NCBI GenBank assembly: GCA_029252555.1
Contig: JAQXBF010000005.1
Span: 1 to 64,000 of the forward strand
Length of the DNA: 64,000 nt
Origin: Porticoccaceae bacterium
GTDB taxonomy: Bacteria; Pseudomonadota; Gammaproteobacteria; Pseudomonadales; Porticoccaceae
Direction of reading: 5' to 3'
Shown here: one piece after another, positions 39,016 to 47,464 of the stretch
Numbering within the stretch: position 1 is the stretch's first letter
Layout: every line of letters starts with the position of its first letter
The notes under the pieces: model-generated
What the model was told of the DNA's origin: nothing
The model's database searches: none
What the model saw: the letters and a program-made list of their open reading frames with translations, nothing else
Position numbers and translations under genes: made by a program

Positions 39016-39678
39016 CTAGCCCAATAGCTGCTTAAGTTGGTCAAGCTGTTCGCGATTGTGTTTTTTGCTCGCCAGAACCTGGGAGGTTTCTGGCAAGGCC
39101 TCTGGGGGCTCAATCGTAAATTCTTCGCCGGTCACCACTCGATCACAGTACTTATTATAGAGAGCGGTAAAAGCGGGCAGAGCTTTGGTCTCAATTTCGT
39201 TGGCTAGCATATGCCAACCACAGTCTCGGGCCGCTAAATACACCACCGGGTGAGACCAATTTTGCTCAGCTTTTGGGCTGCGCTTGTTACACGCTTCCTC
39301 ATAAGCTTTGCGTGCATTGGGCAGGTCCGACGGCATACCCGCATAGCGGCAAGCGTTAAGCATTTTATGCAGGGTGGGGAGATACTCACTGTCGGCGATA
39401 ATTTTTTCTGCCGCCGCAAGAATTATGTCTGGCCCAAAGTCGCTGAGTTTAGACAGCCATAACTTTTTGGCCAGATTTTCTGACTTAGTGTTGTCGCCAA
39501 AGGCAGCGTAGTACTGATTATGATAATTGACCTGAAACAGCGCGAAGATCTGATTGATACCATCAATCAGTTCAGGGCTGACCGGCGACGGTTTAGCTTG
39601 CCCAACTGCGGTCGGAGAGCGCGTCGATGATGCTGCGATCTCGGATGCGACCTTCTGAATTAGATCCTTGCTTGCCAT
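39016..39678 (-). CDS. Lambda P-like replication protein (putative helicase loader)
   Basis: The protein of about 220 residues resembles the phage lambda P family. An N-terminal variable region is followed by ELIDGINQIFALF, AKKLWLSKLSDFG, a YLPTLHKMLNACRYAGMP block (lambda P has a comparable LPSPGQFVAWC region), then LPNARKAYEEACNKR and a C-terminal QLDQLKQLLG. Lambda P recruits and loads DnaB helicase at an origin. The gene overlaps the upstream DnaT-repeat gene by 86 bases. A GTG at 39687 would add three residues; ATG at 39678 is preferred. Assignment is from pattern comparison by eye. Confidence 0.75.
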   Translation of the reverse strand: MASKDLIQKVASEIAASSTRSPTAVGQAKPSPVSPELIDGINQIFALFQVNYHNQYYAAFGDNTKSENLAKKLWLSKLSDFGPDIILAAAEKIIADSEYLPTLHKMLNACRYAGMPSDLPNARKAYEEACNKRSPKAEQNWSHPVVYLAARDCGWHMLANEIETKALPAFTALYNKYCDRVVTGEEFTIEPPEALPETSQVLASKKHNREQLDQLKQLLG

Positions 39679-40720
39679 GACTACCACTCGCTGACTGAGG
39701 TTGATTGTGTCGCGCCCACTGGCGCTTTACATACTGCAAAAACTTGGTACTCCAGGAACCATGTGGTGTGCCATTTTCCTGCCAGTAAAGTACAAATTCC
39801 GGAATAATCTGCTGGGCAAATTGCCGATCTATATTGGCCATCTGCAGCACATCATAAACAGTTTCTTTCGGTTGCCACTGCGCGGGGATCGCGCGTGGCA
39901 TACTGTCTTGGTCCATCATACCAGTGTAAAACTGCCATTGACGGCGCACATGCTGGATAAATTTTGAATCCCATGTGCTTGAGATATCGCCGCGATCACG
40001 CCAGTACAAAATAAACTCTGGAACTGCATCTTCGATAAAGTTGGGGTTGATGCCTCCCTGCTTAATCAGAATATCCAAGGCATCTGCGGAAGGCCGCCAC
40101 TCTCCGGTGACAGAGACTTCGCGGCTGCGCTTATGGTTACTACTTTCAGCCTGCTGCCACTGGCGCCAGACCTCTTTAATATATTTTGATTCCCAGCTAT
40201 GTCGAGGCACATTGCGCTCGCGCCAGTAGGCGACAAACTGGGGAATCTGTTGCTGGGCAAACTCGCGAGTTACGCCTAGCTGAGCGAGTTGTCGCAGGGC
40301 ATCATCACTGGGCTGCCAGCTACCACCAATGGTCTGGGCTGAATGGGGAATATTGCTCGCTTGAGAAGCCTGCTGCGCTGCTGGTGCCTGAGAACGCTGG
40401 GGTACGCCCTGCACAGCCGTTGCCTCATTAAAAGCAAAGCGAAAATCCTGATGCCCAGAAAACGCACCACCACCGATCAGCAACAAACCCTTCTCATGGA
40501 GGCTGGCCGAAAGGCGGCGAATATCTTCTTCGCGCCAAAAGGGCGTTAGGCCCAGTAGTTTCTGCCCTGAGATAGTTACCCAGTTAAACCCGCTGCTGTG
40601 CACCGCATCTCCATGGGCGAGGCATTCCTGTAAAAGCTGCAGCAGCACTGCTTCCTCAAGGCCAAGAGTGGCCGCCATCGTGGGTGAGATAACAATAGGT
40701 TTTTCGGGAATCAGCGACAT
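39593..40720 (-). CDS. Winged-helix protein with three DnaT-like domains (putative primosomal/replication protein)
   Basis: A 375-residue protein. Residues about 1-100 look like a winged-helix replication domain (EEAVLLQLLQECL, then WVTISGQKLLGLTPFWREEDIRRL, KGLLLIGGG). Three near-identical units follow at about 135-188, 208-262 and 282-335, each with W-x-P-(S/K)-x-D/E...L..(G/A)(V/I)...F...(I/V)P(E/Q)F..YW(R/Q)(E/D)...SW.(S/T)K(F/Y)I..V.RQW. This is the DnaT C-terminal domain, which binds ssDNA and helps PriA/PriB/DnaC in E. coli. DnaT normally has one copy. A Gln/Ser/Ala linker separates the first domain from the repeats. It overlaps the lambda P-like gene, suggesting a joint role. Confidence 0.78.
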   Translation of the reverse strand: MSLIPEKPIVISPTMAATLGLEEAVLLQLLQECLAHGDAVHSSGFNWVTISGQKLLGLTPFWREEDIRRLSASLHEKGLLLIGGGAFSGHQDFRFAFNEATAVQGVPQRSQAPAAQQASQASNIPHSAQTIGGSWQPSDDALRQLAQLGVTREFAQQQIPQFVAYWRERNVPRHSWESKYIKEVWRQWQQAESSNHKRSREVSVTGEWRPSADALDILIKQGGINPNFIEDAVPEFILYWRDRGDISSTWDSKFIQHVRRQWQFYTGMMDQDSMPRAIPAQWQPKETVYDVLQMANIDRQFAQQIIPEFVLYWQENGTPHGSWSTKFLQYVKRQWARHNQPQSASGSHGKQGSNSEGRIRDRSIIDALSDRSWAS

Positions 40721-40781
40721 CGCAATACTTTATCAGAAAGCTAACTGATGAACGAGATAATCATGCGACGCTGGCCATTTT

Positions 40782-41462
40782 TTAACTTGCCCAGCCACCA
40801 CTCACCGGAAACACCTGACCGACAAAACAGTCTGCCGCATCGGAACAGAGATAGGCGGCAAACTGCGCATCTTCTTCCATGGATACCAGCCGTCCCAATG
40901 GCACTTCTCGCTTAAGCCGTTCCTGAAAGGCCGGGTTGGCTTTGGTTTCCTCGGGAAAGTAAGTGGGGTTATCTACAAAATTCTGGGCAATGGCATTAAT
41001 TTGAATCCCTTGGGGGGCCATCTCAACACCGGCGGCCTGCACATAGGCAAGCTGTGCACCGCGGGCGGCGCTGTAAGTAGATGCTCGCTTCATGCCTTTT
41101 AGCGCCGATGCGCTGCCCATCACCAGAATTTTGCCCGACTGGCGCTCAATCATCGGTGGCAACACTGCGCTTACCAGCCTTGGTAATGGGTCAACGATGG
41201 TGCTGAAGGTCGAGTACCATTCGTTGTCATTAACCAGTTCCACTTTACTAAAGGGCGCTGGAATCGCCAGATTAATAACAAGCACATCAATAGAGCCTGC
41301 GGCCTCAATAATTTTCGCTGGCAAGGCCGGGTCGGCTAGCAGTTGATTATCGGCAATAACCTCGGCACCCATCTCGGCCAAGACCTCACAAAGGGTTGGC
41401 CCCATAAACGTATCTGCTTGGGTGACTAAAATACGTTTGCCGGTCAAATCGATGCTTTTCAT
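40782..41462 (-). CDS. Putative halohydrin dehalogenase (SDR-fold, S-Y-R triad)
   Basis: The 226-residue protein has the short-chain dehydrogenase fold but lacks the NAD motif. Instead of TGxxxGxG it has T14-QADT-F19-M-G21, which fits the halohydrin dehalogenase pattern T-x4-F/Y-x-G. Instead of S...YxxxK it has S117-x12-Y130-x3-R134, the S-Y-R triad of that family, and the NNAG motif reads NLAI. Halohydrin dehalogenases convert vicinal haloalcohols to epoxides and halide without cofactor, and run in reverse with azide, cyanide or nitrite. NFVDNPTYFP near 161-170 could form the anion pocket. It overlaps the GNAT gene by 4 bases. Confidence 0.82.
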   Translation of the reverse strand: MKSIDLTGKRILVTQADTFMGPTLCEVLAEMGAEVIADNQLLADPALPAKIIEAAGSIDVLVINLAIPAPFSKVELVNDNEWYSTFSTIVDPLPRLVSAVLPPMIERQSGKILVMGSASALKGMKRASTYSAARGAQLAYVQAAGVEMAPQGIQINAIAQNFVDNPTYFPEETKANPAFQERLKREVPLGRLVSMEEDAQFAAYLCSDAADCFVGQVFPVSGGWAS

Positions 41463-41953
41463 TCGTTGTCCTTAAAGTGATGGGCCAAATCTAGCAATGC
41501 TTGGCCGGTAACACGGTTGACAGTCCAATCATCCATCGGCTCTGCGCCCAGTGATTGATAGAAATCTTTGGCGGGTTGGTTCCAGTCTAGTACCCACCAT
41601 TCCAGCCTGCCACAGTTGCGTTCAAGAGCCAGGGCGGCCAGATAGGCCAACAGGGTTTTGCCAAAGCCTTTGCCGCGCATCGCTGGTTGGATATAGAGAT
41701 CTTCAAGATACAGGCCGGGCCGCCCTAAAAAAGTTGAGTAGTTGTGGAAGAAAAGCGCAAAGCCCACGGGTTGACCCCCATGCTCTGCAAACACCACTTC
41801 GGCATGGCGTGTTTCGCCAAATAATGACTCTTCCAATGCCGGTACATCGGCCACCACTTCTTGGAGTAGCTTTTCGTAGTCTGCCAGTTCTCTAATAAAT
41901 TGTAGTATCAGCGGGCAATCTTCAACTCTGGCTGGGCGGATGGACAATGACAT
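41459..41953 (-). CDS. GNAT-family N-acetyltransferase
   Basis: A 164-residue acetyltransferase. IRPARVEDCPLILQFIRELADYEKL is the N-terminal helix pair, and YLEDLYIQPAMRGKGFGKTLLAYLA contains the acetyl-CoA pyrophosphate-binding (Q/R-x-x-G-x-G/A) motif. CGRLEWWVLDWNQPAKDFYQSLGA is the C-terminal acceptor region. The pattern matches the diamine/thialysine (SSAT-like) branch, but the substrate cannot be fixed. It is probably the first gene of a two-gene unit with the dehalogenase-like gene; whether the functions are linked is unknown. Confidence 0.88.
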   Translation of the reverse strand: MSLSIRPARVEDCPLILQFIRELADYEKLLQEVVADVPALEESLFGETRHAEVVFAEHGGQPVGFALFFHNYSTFLGRPGLYLEDLYIQPAMRGKGFGKTLLAYLAALALERNCGRLEWWVLDWNQPAKDFYQSLGAEPMDDWTVNRVTGQALLDLAHHFKDNE

Positions 41954-42074
41954 AGGTATGGGGCTATTTGTGTTGATTGGCTAAAGGGTTATCTTAGCGC
42001 TGAGGCATAATTTTTATTACTGTACATAATAACAGTAATAAGATTAAATAAGACTCATAAACAGGAGAACTCCC

Positions 42075-43448
42075 TTGGCCACTAAAACCAAATCTGCCTA
42101 TGTGTGCAACGACTGCGGCGCAGACTACCGTAAATGGCAGGGCCAGTGCGGTGAGTGCGGCGCATGGAATACGCTGTCAGAGGTGCGTATGGGCCCTGCG
42201 GCTCGCGGTGGCAAGGTGTTGCGCCCGGGGTTTGCTGGTGCTGTGGATGGCGCGGTAAAAACTCTGTCGGATATTGCGCTGGATGAAATACCTCGCATCA
42301 GCACTGGCACCGGTGAGCTGGATTTGGTGTTGGGGGGCGGGTTAGTGCCGGGCTCGGCTATTTTGGTTGGCGGTGAACCAGGGGCGGGTAAAAGCACATT
42401 ACTACTGCAAACCCTTTGTAAGTTAGCGGAAAATAATACGGCACTCTACGTGACTGGTGAGGAATCACCCCAGCAGGTGGCCATGCGAGCCCATCGCTTG
42501 GACTTACCCCCAGATCGCTTGGAGATTATGGCGGAGACCTCGGTAGAAACCGTTTGCGCTATCGCCGAGCAAAAGCGCCCTAAAATTCTGGTGGTCGACT
42601 CTATTCAAGTCATGCATATGGATGAGGTGACTTCGGCGCCAGGCAGTGTTTCTCAGGTGCGTGAAAGTGCCTCTATGCTAGTGCGCTTTGCTAAACAGAC
42701 CGGCACTGTGTTGATTTTGGTTGGCCATGTCACCAAAGATGGTTCTCTGGCAGGCCCCAAGGTGCTAGAGCATATGATTGACTGTTCACTGATGCTGGAG
42801 GGTTCCAGCGATAGCCACTTCCGTACCCTGCGCAGCAATAAAAATCGCTTTGGTGCGGTGAATGAGCTCGGCGTTTTTGCCATGACCGATAAAGGCCTGA
42901 AAGAAGTGGCCAACCCCTCGGCGATTTTTCTTCAGCGGGGTGAAGAGGTGTCCTCTGGCTCGGTGGTCATGGTGGTCTGGGAAGGCACTCGCCCACTGCT
43001 GGTTGAATTGCAGGCGCTGGTTGATGACAGCCATCTGGGTAACCCACGGCGGGTGACCGTGGGCCTGGACCACAACCGGCTGTCTATGCTTTTGGCGGTG
43101 TTGCATCGCCATGGTGGCATCTCGGTGGGTGATCAGGATGTGTTTGTGAATGTGGTGGGAGGCGTCAAAGTGCTGGAGACTAGTGCTGATTTGGCGCTGA
43201 TCTTGTCGGTGATTTCTAGCTTCCGCGACAAAACACTACCTCAGGACCTGGTGGTGTTTGGCGAGGTGGGGCTGGCGGGTGAAATTCGTCCGGTGGCCAA
43301 TGGTCAGGAGCGTTTGCGTGAAGCGGCCAAGCATGGTTTTACGCGCGCCATTGTGCCGGCGGGTAATGCCCCTAAACAGCCGATAAAGGGCATGACCGTG
43401 ATCCCAGTCCGTCGTGTGACCGAGGCTCTAGACGCGGTTTCTAATTAG
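42075..43448 (+). CDS. radA: DNA repair protein RadA
   Basis: The 457-residue RadA/Sms is a DnaB-like branch-migration helicase in recombinational repair. It has an N-terminal zinc finger (CNDCGADYRKWQGQCGECGAW), Walker A GGEPGAGKSTLLLQ, the RadA-specific KNRFG motif in LRSNKNRFGAVNE, and a C-terminal Lon-protease-like domain (VFVNVVGGVKVLETSADLALIL, FGEVGLAGEIRPV). AACAGGAGAA precedes the start, TTG at 42075; the family usually begins near here. Confidence 0.96.
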   Translation: MATKTKSAYVCNDCGADYRKWQGQCGECGAWNTLSEVRMGPAARGGKVLRPGFAGAVDGAVKTLSDIALDEIPRISTGTGELDLVLGGGLVPGSAILVGGEPGAGKSTLLLQTLCKLAENNTALYVTGEESPQQVAMRAHRLDLPPDRLEIMAETSVETVCAIAEQKRPKILVVDSIQVMHMDEVTSAPGSVSQVRESASMLVRFAKQTGTVLILVGHVTKDGSLAGPKVLEHMIDCSLMLEGSSDSHFRTLRSNKNRFGAVNELGVFAMTDKGLKEVANPSAIFLQRGEEVSSGSVVMVVWEGTRPLLVELQALVDDSHLGNPRRVTVGLDHNRLSMLLAVLHRHGGISVGDQDVFVNVVGGVKVLETSADLALILSVISSFRDKTLPQDLVVFGEVGLAGEIRPVANGQERLREAAKHGFTRAIVPAGNAPKQPIKGMTVIPVRRVTEALDAVSN

Positions 43449-43576: not shown

Positions 43577-43800
43577 GGTTCTCGCGTTTAGTGTTAGGAT
43601 TTTTGACTAAATAAGAGTGAAATGGGAAATCGGTGCGCACTACCAAAGACTGGTATTAGTTGTTATTCCGATACTGCCCCCGCAACGGTAAGTAAGAAAA
43701 TTTAGCTGTATGACCACTGTGCACCAATGCATGGGAAGGTAGCTAAATAGAACGCTGGCAACAGAGTTCACTTATGAGTCCGGAGACCGGCCTATCGCTA
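43577..43800 (+). ncRNA. Cobalamin (B12) riboswitch
   Basis: The conserved cobalamin aptamer elements occur in order: GGTT at 43578, AAATGGGAAATCGGTGCGCAC near 43620-43640, ACTGCCCCCGCAACGGTAAG near 43673-43692, GACCACTGTGC...CATGGGAAGGT near 43711-43740, and the B12 box GAGTCCGGAGACCGGCC at 43776-43792. It lies ahead of btuB, so it is expected to repress the transport operon when adenosylcobalamin is plentiful. Boundaries are approximate. Confidence 0.93.
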
Positions 43801-43847
43801 TGCAGACAAACCGCGGGGTGCGGTCTTGTGCTGATTGACGGTCTCCG
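43781..43847 (+). promoter_or_regulatory. Possible riboswitch expression platform (anti-B12-box pairing)
   Basis: CGGAGACCG inside the B12 box (43781-43789) is perfectly complementary to CGGTCTCCG at 43839-43847. Pairing would unfold the ligand-bound core and is a candidate switching helix. A small CCGC/GCGG hairpin (43811-43823) lies between the two strands. The pairing is seen in the sequence; the switching role is inferred. Confidence 0.5.
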
Positions 43848-43913: not shown

Positions 43914-45830
43914 ATGCAAAAATCTTCCATTCTGGGGGCAGCAATAGCTCTGTCCGCAATTCCCCTTGTTTCCCAAGCCGTAACTGCGGCTGAAACAGAA
44001 ATCCAAGAAGTGCTAGTTAGTGCTTCACTTGTTCCCATTCCCGCCAACCGGTCGGCCAATGCTATTACTGTGATTGATAGCGAGCAATTAAAAAATCGTG
44101 CCGCCCTGAGTGTCGCTGATTTATTGCGAGACGTGCCAGGCCTGGCGGTTAGCCGCAGCGGTGTGCAGGGCTCACAAACGCAGATTCGTGCCCGTGGCAC
44201 AGAGGCCAATCATTTGCTAGTTCTGATCGATGGAGTTGAGGCCAATGATCCCTCTCAGAGCGATGAGCTTAACTGGGGTACTTTGTCTGCCGATGATATC
44301 GAACGCATTGAAGTGATTCGTGGCCCCCAGAGTTCTATGCGCGGCAGTGATGCTATGGCCGGGGTGATTAACATTGTGACTCGCAGTGCCGACCAGCCAT
44401 TTAGCGCCAAGCTATTCACTGAAGCGGGCAGCTTTTCGACCCAGCGCAGCGGCTTTAATATTGGTGGCAAGCAGGGCAACTTCGATATTCGTTTAGGGGT
44501 CAGCGATACTCAGACTGATGGCGATAATATCTCCCGCACTGGTAATGAGAAAGATGGCTACGAAAACACCAGTATCAATCTAAAGGCTGGTTATCAAGCG
44601 AGTGATGAGCTCAAGCTTTCATTTGCTGCACGCCAGTCTGATGGTATGAATGAATTTGATGCTGACAATGATTTCGATGGTTTTGTCGAAGATCAGGATC
44701 GTGTCTCTGAATTCCGCAACAGTACCATGCGCTTGCAGGGTGACTATATCTCTGCCAATGGTCGCTGGCAGCACAAGCTGGTGATTGCTCAGTCAAATAA
44801 CGATAACGAAGCTTTTGCTGATGGCACCTTAGGTAATGTCACAGCCTCTACCAAAGACCAGTTTCAGTATATTGGTTCGATGTTTTGGGATGGCGGTGCC
44901 CAGCGTGTTTCTGTCCTTGCAGAGCGTGAAGAGGAAGACTTTCAACAGCGTGGGCCATTAAATTGGGGTCTAGATCCCAATCAGGATCGCGAGCGTGATA
45001 CGGATAGCTTTGCCATCGAATACCGCAGCGACATTTCTGAGAACCTAACGGTTGCAGCCAGCGGTCGACATGATAACAACTCTGAGTTTGAAAATGCCGA
45101 CACTTACAGAATTGAAGCAATCTATCAGTTAAATGATGGCCTTAGGTTGCGCACCGCCTATGGTACAGCAGTTAAGAACCCATCGTTCTCCGAGCGCTTT
45201 GGTTTTTACACTAATTTTATTGGTAATCCTAATTTGGAGCCAGAAGAGTCTACTAGCTGGGAGCTGGGTGTGGACCAGCAGTTGGGTGAGTTAAGTCTAT
45301 CTGCCACGCTATTTGATTCAGAGTTAGAGAATGAAATTAATGGTTTTGTTTATGACCCCTCTACCTTTGCTTATACCTCAGGAAACAATGAAGGTTTAAG
45401 CCAGCGTCAGGGTGTGGAACTTACCGCTGCTGTGAATATGGACGATAGTCTGAGTATCAATGCTGCATATACTTATACCGATTCGGTTGAGGCACATCTT
45501 GCTGGTGGATACAACGATGAAGTGCGTCGAGCGCGCCACACTGGCAGCCTTAATCTGGCATGGCAGGTAATGGATAACCTGCAGATCAGCGCCAATGCCC
45601 AGTACAACGGCAGCCAGACAGATGTGTACTTCCCACCATGGCCAACTCCATCCCAGACAGTCACCTTAGATGATTACACGCTGCTGAATATCAATGCTAA
45701 CTACAGCGCGTCAGATAATTTAGAAATCTACCTGCGTTTGGACAACCTACTGGATGACGATTATGAAGAAGTATTCGGTTATCAGACTCTGGGTTTTGGC
45801 GCCAGTTTGGGCCTGCGCTTTAGTCTATAA
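43914..45830 (+). CDS. btuB: TonB-dependent cobalamin receptor BtuB
   Basis: A 638-residue outer-membrane receptor: signal peptide (about 1-26), a TonB box (EIQEVLVSAS, about 29-38), a plug domain (LKNRAALSVADLLRDVPGLAVSRSGVQGSQTQIRARG; IDGVEANDP; IEVIRGPQSSMRGSDAMAGVINIVT) and a 22-strand-type barrel ending LGFGASLGLRFSL with a terminal aromatic-x-hydrophobic signal. The riboswitch upstream and the btuCDF genes downstream support cobalamin as substrate. An EDRVSEF/DADNDFDG acidic loop resembles the calcium loops of BtuB. Confidence 0.93.
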   Translation: MQKSSILGAAIALSAIPLVSQAVTAAETEIQEVLVSASLVPIPANRSANAITVIDSEQLKNRAALSVADLLRDVPGLAVSRSGVQGSQTQIRARGTEANHLLVLIDGVEANDPSQSDELNWGTLSADDIERIEVIRGPQSSMRGSDAMAGVINIVTRSADQPFSAKLFTEAGSFSTQRSGFNIGGKQGNFDIRLGVSDTQTDGDNISRTGNEKDGYENTSINLKAGYQASDELKLSFAARQSDGMNEFDADNDFDGFVEDQDRVSEFRNSTMRLQGDYISANGRWQHKLVIAQSNNDNEAFADGTLGNVTASTKDQFQYIGSMFWDGGAQRVSVLAEREEEDFQQRGPLNWGLDPNQDRERDTDSFAIEYRSDISENLTVAASGRHDNNSEFENADTYRIEAIYQLNDGLRLRTAYGTAVKNPSFSERFGFYTNFIGNPNLEPEESTSWELGVDQQLGELSLSATLFDSELENEINGFVYDPSTFAYTSGNNEGLSQRQGVELTAAVNMDDSLSINAAYTYTDSVEAHLAGGYNDEVRRARHTGSLNLAWQVMDNLQISANAQYNGSQTDVYFPPWPTPSQTVTLDDYTLLNINANYSASDNLEIYLRLDNLLDDDYEEVFGYQTLGFGASLGLRFSL

Positions 45831-45857: not shown

Positions 45858-46553
45858 ATGACAAAGTCAGCTGATACAGGTATCAAACGAGTGCTGCTCT
45901 CTTGGAGCAGCGGTAAAGACTCGGCTTGGACTCTGTATCAGCTGCAGCAGGATCCAACGGTAGAGGTGGTGGGCTTGCTCACCACGTTCAATAGCCAGTT
46001 TAAGCGTTCCGCCATCCATGGTGTGCGTCAGCAGCTGTTGCGACTTCAGGCACAGGCTGCGCAGTTGCTACTGGTTGAAATTCCCCTGCCCTGGCCCTGC
46101 AGTAACGAACAGTACGAAACCATTATGGGTCAAGCACTAGATGATGCCCGAGCACAGTTGCAAATGGATGCGTTGGCCTTTGGTGATCTGTATCTGGAAG
46201 ATATCCGCAACTACCGTGAGCAACAGATGGCAGGCACCGGGTTGGAGTTGGTGTTCCCTCTTTGGCAAATCCCAACAGACCAGTTAGCCAGACAAATGAT
46301 TGAGGGTGGGCTCCAAGCAGCGATTACCTGCCTCGACCCAAGGGTGATGCCAGAGCATTTGGCAGGCCACCAGTTTGGTTATCAATTGCTGGACGAGCTT
46401 CCGGAGTCGGTGGACCCCTGTGGCGAAAATGGTGAATTTCACACCTTTGCCTGGGATGGCCCTATGTTTGCTCAGCCGATCCCTGTGGTGGGAGGCGAGG
46501 TGGTCAATCGGGATGGTTTTGTCTATGCTGATTTGCTACTGGAGGGTTCCTAA
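45858..46553 (+). CDS. DUF71/COG2102 PP-loop ATPase, B12-associated
   Basis: The 231-residue protein has a PP-loop near the N-terminus (LLSWSSGKDSAW, SSGKDS at residues 17-22), then AIHGVRQQLLRLQAQAAQL and a C-terminal part with FGDLYLEDIRNYRE and DPCGENGEFHTFAWDGPMF. It is homologous to diphthine-ammonia ligase, which modifies EF-2 in archaea and eukaryotes. Bacteria have no diphthamide, and comparative genomics has predicted a B12-salvage role for a bacterial subgroup. The location inside a cobalamin operon fits that prediction. Its reaction is unknown. It overlaps the next gene by one base. Confidence 0.85.
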   Translation: MTKSADTGIKRVLLSWSSGKDSAWTLYQLQQDPTVEVVGLLTTFNSQFKRSAIHGVRQQLLRLQAQAAQLLLVEIPLPWPCSNEQYETIMGQALDDARAQLQMDALAFGDLYLEDIRNYREQQMAGTGLELVFPLWQIPTDQLARQMIEGGLQAAITCLDPRVMPEHLAGHQFGYQLLDELPESVDPCGENGEFHTFAWDGPMFAQPIPVVGGEVVNRDGFVYADLLLEGS

Positions 46554-47464
46554 TGAAGATCGTCTCACTACTACCTAGCGCTACCGAATTGGTCTGCGGC
46601 TTAGGCCTGCGTGATCAGCTGGTTGGCGTATCCCATGAATGCGATTACCCGCCTTCGGTGGTTGGGTTGCCCATATTGACAAGTTCCCGCATTCCCGAAG
46701 GTCTGGAAAGCGGCGAAATAGATCGGCTGGTGACAGATCAGCTGAAAAACGATGAGGCGCTCTATGATCTGGTGATGGCACCATTAACTGAGCTTGAGCC
46801 AGAATTGATTGTGACTCAGGCCCTGTGTGATGTGTGCGCCGTATCTGGCAATGATGTCGCCAAAGCTATTGGCCGCCTGCCTGGTGAACCCCAGGTAGTG
46901 AATCTCGAGCCTATCTGTCTTAATGATGTACTGGATACAGTCGATCTTTTAGCGCAAGCCGCTGATTGCGTAGAGCAGGGGAAGCGCTACAGAGCTGAGT
47001 TGCAGGGGCGAATTGATGCTGTCGCCGATCGGTCAAAAACGGTTGCACACAGGCCCAGAGTGGCGCTTTTAGATTGGCTAGATCCGTTGTTTGATGGAGG
47101 CCACTGGAGCCCAGAAATTATCGATCTGGCGGGTGCCGAGCCCTGTTTTGGTGCTAAACAAGAACCCTCTCAGCGGCGGGAATGGGGCCAATTAATTGAG
47201 GCCCAGCCCGACTGCATCTTTATTGCCCTGTGTGGGTTTAATGTTGAACGCTCCATGCAAGATGTCGACGCATTTTTAGCTTGCGATGGCTTTGGCCAGT
47301 TGCAGGCTAAGGGCGATACCAAGGTCTTTTTAGTCGATGGCAACGCTTACTTTAGCCGTCCAGGTCCAAGATTGGTGGATGCATTGGAAATTATGGCCAA
47401 TGCATTACACCCAACTATTCACTCATTGCCAGCGGGATTGCCCGAGGCGATAAAAATTAATTAA
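46553..47464 (+). CDS. BtuF-like cobalamin-binding protein without signal peptide
   Basis: A 303-residue protein of the periplasmic-binding-protein (TroA/BtuF) fold: IVSLLPSATELVCGLGLRDQLVGVSHECDYP at the N-terminus, LEPELIVTQALCDVCAVS, and a C-terminal WGQLIEAQPDCIFIALCGF / VFLVDGNAYFSRPGPRLVDAL region. No signal peptide or lipobox is present, unlike the BtuF encoded at 49891. It is therefore probably cytosolic, perhaps a partner of the DUF71 protein with which it is translationally coupled. Ligand binding is inferred. Confidence 0.82.
   Translation: MKIVSLLPSATELVCGLGLRDQLVGVSHECDYPPSVVGLPILTSSRIPEGLESGEIDRLVTDQLKNDEALYDLVMAPLTELEPELIVTQALCDVCAVSGNDVAKAIGRLPGEPQVVNLEPICLNDVLDTVDLLAQAADCVEQGKRYRAELQGRIDAVADRSKTVAHRPRVALLDWLDPLFDGGHWSPEIIDLAGAEPCFGAKQEPSQRREWGQLIEAQPDCIFIALCGFNVERSMQDVDAFLACDGFGQLQAKGDTKVFLVDGNAYFSRPGPRLVDALEIMANALHPTIHSLPAGLPEAIKIN

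Follow-up and report, generated by a model that had tools for sequence, protein, structure and literature searches.

Halohydrin dehalogenases (HHDHs) have a published family signature, the motif pair T-x4-F/Y-x-G and S-x12-Y-x3-R (PMC4989007, PMC11976700). The corresponding motifs of classical short-chain dehydrogenases/reductases (SDRs) are defined as T-G/A-x3-G/A-x-G and S-x10-14-Y-x3-K (PMC11976700). Within subtype D, HheD to HheD6 are counted as experimentally verified in a review (PMC4989007), and the source of HheD2 is given as a gammaproteobacterium (PMC5892878). One paper describes enzymes of this subtype from marine Pseudomonas and proposes an important role in the marine environment (PMC6922532). 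For hheC, an epoxide hydrolase gene is described as a neighbour (PMC11976700). Here we describe hheD, a gene in a 64,000-nucleotide stretch from the genome of a SAR92-type marine bacterium of the Porticoccaceae (contig JAQXBF010000005.1, positions 1 to 64,000; below, the window). Its product is almost certainly a halohydrin dehalogenase and, judged by sequence, is an ortholog of HheD2, the crystallised subtype-D enzyme from the marine gammaproteobacterium HTCC2207. The fuller explanation, a cofactor-independent subtype-D enzyme that forms epoxides from haloalcohols, we hold to be very probable.

The gene and its signature motifs

The gene lies on the minus strand, a detail absent from the preliminary description of this DNA; the plus strand is interrupted by stops over the same interval. 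It starts with ATG and has 226 codons, the stop being counted within the interval:

40782..41462, minus strand: hheD, predicted subtype-D halohydrin dehalogenase of 226 amino acids (motifs, homology, fold)

The preliminary description had pointed to T14-x4-F19-x-G21 and S117-x12-Y130-x3-R134, and the translation carries both at exactly these residue numbers. The first replaces the cofactor loop, with its glycine motif, of the SDR fold, while S117, Y130 and R134 form the catalytic set, with Arg in place of Lys. Both HHDH motifs are thus present in the hheD protein, and neither classical SDR motif is. In an alignment of 50 proteins, namely the hheD protein and 49 of the 80 relatives that were kept from the search described below, none of the six signature residues varies.

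The motifs were controlled for chance. Among 334 stop-to-stop frames of at least 60 amino acids in the window, motif 1 is found in seven and motif 2 in six. Both motifs spaced 95-110 residues apart are found in exactly one of the 334 frames and in no shuffled frame over 200 rounds, showing that the pair is not a product of chance. As a second control we used SDR-like frames from seven loci (L002-L008) of 22 further matches in the same genome. This gave 10 rows from six of the seven loci (none from L004, and some rows repeat the same frame). Nine of these carry ordinary [TS]G-x3-[GA]-x-G and S-xn-Y-x3-K motifs and one (308 amino acids, L003) carries neither; the HHDH motifs are found in 0 of the 10.

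Closest relatives in sequence and fold

When the hheD protein is compared with solved structures using phmmer, 7b73 is the top match (420 bits), followed by 8xxb (303 bits) and HheB, 4zd6 (183 bits). Further chains named dehalogenase or halohydrin dehalogenase score 80-98 bits, and 5o30 and its relatives, which are HheG (PMC11976700), score 75-79 bits. The first FabG reductase follows at 74.3 bits, and the distant HheC is found at 66.6 bits, below several reductases.

The fold comparison gives a similar order. An AlphaFold model built on the 50-row alignment has a mean predicted local distance difference test score (pLDDT) of 85.7 and a predicted TM-score (pTM) of 0.86, with lower means of 64-68 in blocks 121-130, 161-170 and 181-190. 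In Foldseek the first rank is held by 7b73 (TMq 0.90, root mean square deviation 2.9, 86% identity); according to the structure titles it is HheD2, and 8xxb is a mutant HheD8. Identity is 61% to 8xxb and 44% to HheB. FabG structures reach a TMq of about 0.8, and the first HheC chain appears only at rank 49. Since the fold is shared and HheC, a halohydrin dehalogenase itself, ranks under FabG in both searches, the assignment to a class has to rest on the nearest relatives and on the residues, and not on the fold.

By this measure the closest solved relatives are HHDHs and not reductases. HheD2, HheD8 and HheB all precede the first NAD(P)-dependent SDR in sequence as well as in fold, which bears out the enzyme class given in the preliminary description. 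According to that description, the assignment would be overturned if true NAD(P)-binding SDRs were the best matches, which is not what we find: the first reductase lies more than 100 bits behind all three. Also in line with what had been expected, such a gene is easily annotated as an SDR oxidoreductase only. Pfam reports two general SDR families and nothing else; the 25 best of 179 NCBIfam models are all SDR reductases or dehydrogenases, none of them at its cut-off; and even the molecule name of 7b73 in the PDB is just 'SDR'.

The identities place the protein closer to the HheD enzymes than to other subtypes. A review gives less than 30% identity between HHDH subtypes (PMC4989007); the 44% identity to HheB disagrees with this figure, and we did not use it as a criterion. 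In the tree, HheD8 falls among the subtype-D proteins, and HheB stands outside on a very long branch. The rows of both are long and their placement is unsure.

The proposed marine gammaproteobacterial link can be made specific. A 223-residue stretch of HheD2 is found unchanged within a protein of HTCC2207 (locus L012), and HheD2 is therefore the HTCC2207 enzyme. By BLASTP the hheD protein is 85% identical to this HTCC2207 protein.

Predicted mechanism and role

We take the catalytic roles of Tyr, Arg, Ser and the halide pocket in HheC as the model (PMC4989007). The steps are established for other HHDHs, and for the hheD protein we infer them from the conserved residues. Tyr130 would act as the base that takes the hydroxyl proton of a vicinal haloalcohol, with Arg134 lowering its pKa and Ser117 holding the substrate oxygen. 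This oxygen would displace the halide to give the epoxide, and the halide would exit into a pocket that takes the place of the NAD(P) site, at the motif around T14, F19 and G21. In the reverse direction, small anions would open epoxides.

For the role in the cell, we give roughly even odds to the removal of naturally occurring marine haloalcohols. This estimate is much less certain than the identity of the enzyme.

Spread of the family

A scan of genome contigs gave 370 stretches that fit the search pattern. A relative is encoded in 320 of them, and the best 80 were kept. The relatives were found partly via a peptide that contains motif 1, so the 80 closest of 320 are a biased sample; both motifs at the right spacing are present in 80 of 80, and identities to the hheD protein are 66-89%. 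Judged by their titles the kept relatives are largely Beta- and Gammaproteobacteria, with some other groups. The enzyme class had been called small; the class stands, but smallness does not hold for subtype D, given this number of close relatives (best 80 of 320).

Whole genomes were searched at an E-value of 1e-60 or better, with evenly drawn samples for order and class and the genome itself counted each time. Within the genus, 20 of 50 genomes give a match to hheD; for the family the count is 20 of 112, all 20 belonging to this genus. At wider ranks the numbers are 26 of 391 genomes for the order and 9 of 370 for the class. The weakest matches are 49-55% identical, and not all of them need be of the same subtype.

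The locus in the SAR92 clade

Around hheD, all on the minus strand, we find:

41459..41953, minus strand: GNAT acetyltransferase gene, directly upstream of hheD (Pfam Acetyltransf_1, 74 bits)
40721..40781, minus strand: gap between hheD and the dnaT-like gene (comparison by eye)
39593..40720, minus strand: dnaT-like gene, downstream of hheD (Pfam DnaT, 223 bits, three stretches)

The acetyltransferase gene and hheD overlap by 4 bases and are probably co-transcribed. A consensus promoter scan of 40600-42120 returned no site; shuffled sequences averaged 1.9, so this null result carries little weight.

The nearest relatives (L009-L024) are, by title, Porticoccaceae, SAR92 and similar marine records. 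An acetyltransferase homologue is found upstream of hheD in all 16 of these SAR92-clade loci, and at an E-value of 1e-8 none is found in the other 64 kept loci. Directly downstream, the dnaT-like gene family is present in 13 of 16. The exceptions are L011 and L020, where the contig ends soon past hheD, and L014, where a minus-strand frame was called at this place. The dnaT-like gene is a fixed neighbour of the site, and a metabolic link to hheD is not evident.

We compared the site with 10 of the 30 genus genomes that lack hheD, each at least 90% complete. All 10 have the dnaT-like gene, while the acetyltransferase is found in only two, G040 and G036, where it is followed directly by dnaT. The 3' half of the gap in the window, TCTCGTTC...GCTTTCTGATAAAGTA, resembles by eye the sequence that precedes dnaT in 10 of 10 of these genomes, and this half therefore probably belongs to dnaT.

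In a 24-row tree of dnaT, the presence of hheD requires three changes, and the well-supported branches force two of them; G040 and G036 nest among hheD bearers. This tree is midpoint-rooted, and several of its deep forks are unresolved. The simplest reading of these sequences is one gain and two losses in the genus, with a regain as the alternative. Further, 17 SAR92 hheD sequences form one group with support of 100/99 (bootstrap not fully settled).

The gene appears to be under constraint. The ratio of nonsynonymous to synonymous substitution rates (dN/dS) is 0.041-0.062 in five of seven pairs with the hheD of the window, values that are rough because dS is 1.4-2.8; the other two pairs are saturated. 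Closer pairs agree: for L009/L010 and L012/L022, dS is 0.51 and 0.83 and dN/dS is 0.044 and 0.041, respectively. No stop interrupts the frame in any of the 20 genus copies. Taken together, the history of the site and the low dN/dS make hheD look like an old trait of the SAR92 clade, selected but dispensable.

One could go further and propose an old constrained trait, not a recent gene for pollutant degradation, that was gained once with or next to the acetyltransferase gene. The two genes could then act together in detoxification, as a small unit directed at a haloalcohol or epoxide of natural marine origin, in which the acetyltransferase would modify either the substrate or the product. We regard this extended proposal as a long shot.

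The region downstream of hheD (39016-40720, minus strand) encodes the DnaT-like protein, with its three DnaT stretches, followed by a match to phage lambda replication protein P (31 bits). This site is conserved in SAR92 loci, and the two proteins are perhaps a cellular helicase-loading pair.

Neighbourhoods outside the SAR92 clade

The gene-neighbourhood survey covered 80 loci. From these, 50 proteins encoded near hheD, including some that are not its direct neighbours, were compared with Pfam. This set includes 30 of 32 close co-directional neighbours, all but the upstream genes of L050 and L084. The purpose-written gene caller lost the target in L075 and fused hheD to the preceding carboxylase frame in L072. 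Outside SAR92 the neighbours of hheD are scattered, and the 50 proteins reveal no common pathway.

Two arrangements recur. In three of the 80 loci, all from Halopseudomonas, a homologue of epoxide hydrolase lies immediately upstream of hheD:

L058, 5024-6004: epoxide hydrolase homologue, 4-base overlap with hheD
L053, 4960-5931: epoxide hydrolase homologue, gap of 69 bases
L079, 5000-5971: epoxide hydrolase homologue, gap of 29 bases

With the L058 protein as query, the homologues score 571 (L053), 778 (L058) and 569 bits (L079), while the matches in L043 and L032 are far weaker, at 48 and 31 bits. The L058 protein, the one compared with solved structures, matches EphA with 270 bits. The three loci form one group in the tree and should therefore be counted as one lineage. 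Their gene order suggests a unit that would convert a haloalcohol via the epoxide to the diol.

In five other loci (L038, L055, L056, L066 and L072), hheD stands between homologues of methylcrotonyl-CoA carboxylase alpha and 3-hydroxy-3-methylglutaryl-CoA (HMG-CoA) lyase. Their titles name two Proteobacteria, one Betaproteobacteria, one beta proteobacterium and one Dechloromonas.

Haloalkane dehalogenase homologues in the genome

Two homologues of haloalkane dehalogenase are found elsewhere in the genome. In NCBIfam they score 392.5 and 338.9 bits, above cut-offs of 241 and 265 bits, respectively:

L101, 1462-2340 (G000:C12): LinB-like haloalkane dehalogenase homologue
L102, 886-1959 (G000:C35): second haloalkane dehalogenase homologue, matching structures in two separate stretches

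The two-stretch match of the second protein suggests an insertion. We refer to this protein as DhlA-like.

We studied the co-occurrence of both with hheD in the 50 genus genomes, with p-values that ignore kinship throughout. Of the 20 genomes that have hheD, 6 carry the LinB-like gene, against 11 of the 30 that lack hheD (p=0.76); among genomes of at least 1.9 Mb the numbers are 5 of 19 and 10 of 19 (p=0.18), that is, in the opposite direction. The DhlA-like gene is present in 18 of 20 genomes with hheD and 13 of 30 without (p=0.001), and in 18 of 19 against 13 of 19 (p=0.09) among genomes of at least 1.9 Mb.

Alternative explanations

Some of these results weigh against hheD as a dehalogenase working in a haloalcohol pathway. 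Over the 50 genus genomes, neither haloalkane dehalogenase homologue co-occurs convincingly with hheD, and we claim no coupling. Further, an epoxide hydrolase of the EphA type, the only type searched for, was not recognised in the genome: of seven weak matches the two best are the haloalkane dehalogenase homologues, a third was read without identification and four were not followed. Nor is there a pathway neighbour among the scanned window proteins (GNAT, dnaT-like, lambda P-like, AceK-like and two further up), and the seven window proteins compared with Pfam and NCBIfam revealed no dehalogenation pathway gathered in one place. As a first alternative, the protein could have the fold and the active site of an HHDH while selection acts on another epoxide or anion reaction, for instance the opening of an endogenous epoxide by a small anion, dehalogenation being a side activity. 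The position between the carboxylase and HMG-CoA lyase homologues in five of 80 loci and the lack of a common pathway among the 50 neighbour proteins fit such a function. However, subtype-D enzymes are among the experimentally verified HHDHs (PMC4989007), and the epoxide hydrolase neighbour in the three Halopseudomonas loci suits a route from haloalcohol to diol. We consider a selected function of this other kind possible, though clearly the less likely case.

It is highly improbable that the protein is an ordinary NAD(P)-dependent SDR reductase whose motifs have merely drifted. Its database matches would suit one, with only general SDR families in Pfam and the 25 best NCBIfam models being reductases or dehydrogenases below cut-off, and so would the shared fold (FabG TMq about 0.8) and the fact that HheC and some other HHDHs score under several FabG chains. 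However, the protein has neither the glycine motif nor the catalytic Lys, all 50 aligned proteins share the residues that stand in their place, and HheD2, HheD8 and HheB each score over 100 bits higher than the first reductase. Equally little speaks for a decayed, non-functional remnant in this lineage, which we give hardly any chance: its patchy presence (20 of 50 genus genomes) and the two genomes without hheD that nest among bearers on the dnaT tree are what decay would leave, but the frame is intact, the 20 genus copies are free of internal stops and, for the pairs that allow an estimate, dN/dS comes to about 0.04-0.06. A cofactor-independent subtype-D halohydrin dehalogenase thus stays the preferred explanation.

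Other features of the window

A cobalamin riboswitch is found at 43579-43809 on the plus strand (99 bits). Downstream of it, a 638-amino-acid frame at 43914 reads like a TonB-dependent receptor, and the genes that follow look, by reading, like cobalamin uptake and salvage. The only Pfam match among these genes is a periplasmic binding protein at 46553-47464.

Comparison with known systems

The motifs and the marine subtype-D enzymes are already in print, and hheD departs from the known kind in nothing. In this sense the gene alone is expected and ordinary, another clean HheD2 ortholog for epoxide biocatalysis, and its interest rests on the question of the native role. Its presence or absence at one site, in a marine genus that includes HTCC2207, provides a tidy system for testing what HHDHs do natively. 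A literature search combining SAR92 and halohydrin found no paper in the collection searched; neither the history of the SAR92 site nor the Halopseudomonas epoxide hydrolase context was met in the literature searched, and we do not claim that they are unpublished.

The nearest known system is HheD2 of HTCC2207 (PDB 7b73). It has its length, its fold and all signature residues in common with the hheD protein, and its locus also has a GNAT homologue upstream and the dnaT-like gene family downstream, as in the window. About 15% of the residues differ, no signature residue being among them. HheD8 (PDB 8xxb, titled a triple mutant) has a subtype-D sequence and is 61% identical. The SAR92 copies of hheD form their own clade with 100/99 support, apart from HheD8 and other subtype-D HHDHs, among them HheD12 of Pseudomonas pelagia, and outside SAR92 the genomic context is different. 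HheB (PDB 4zd6) belongs to the same enzyme class and, as subtype B, comes next after subtype D among the solved structures (183 bits); it differs in its 44% identity and in having Y where the hheD protein has F in motif 1, as read from the alignment printout.
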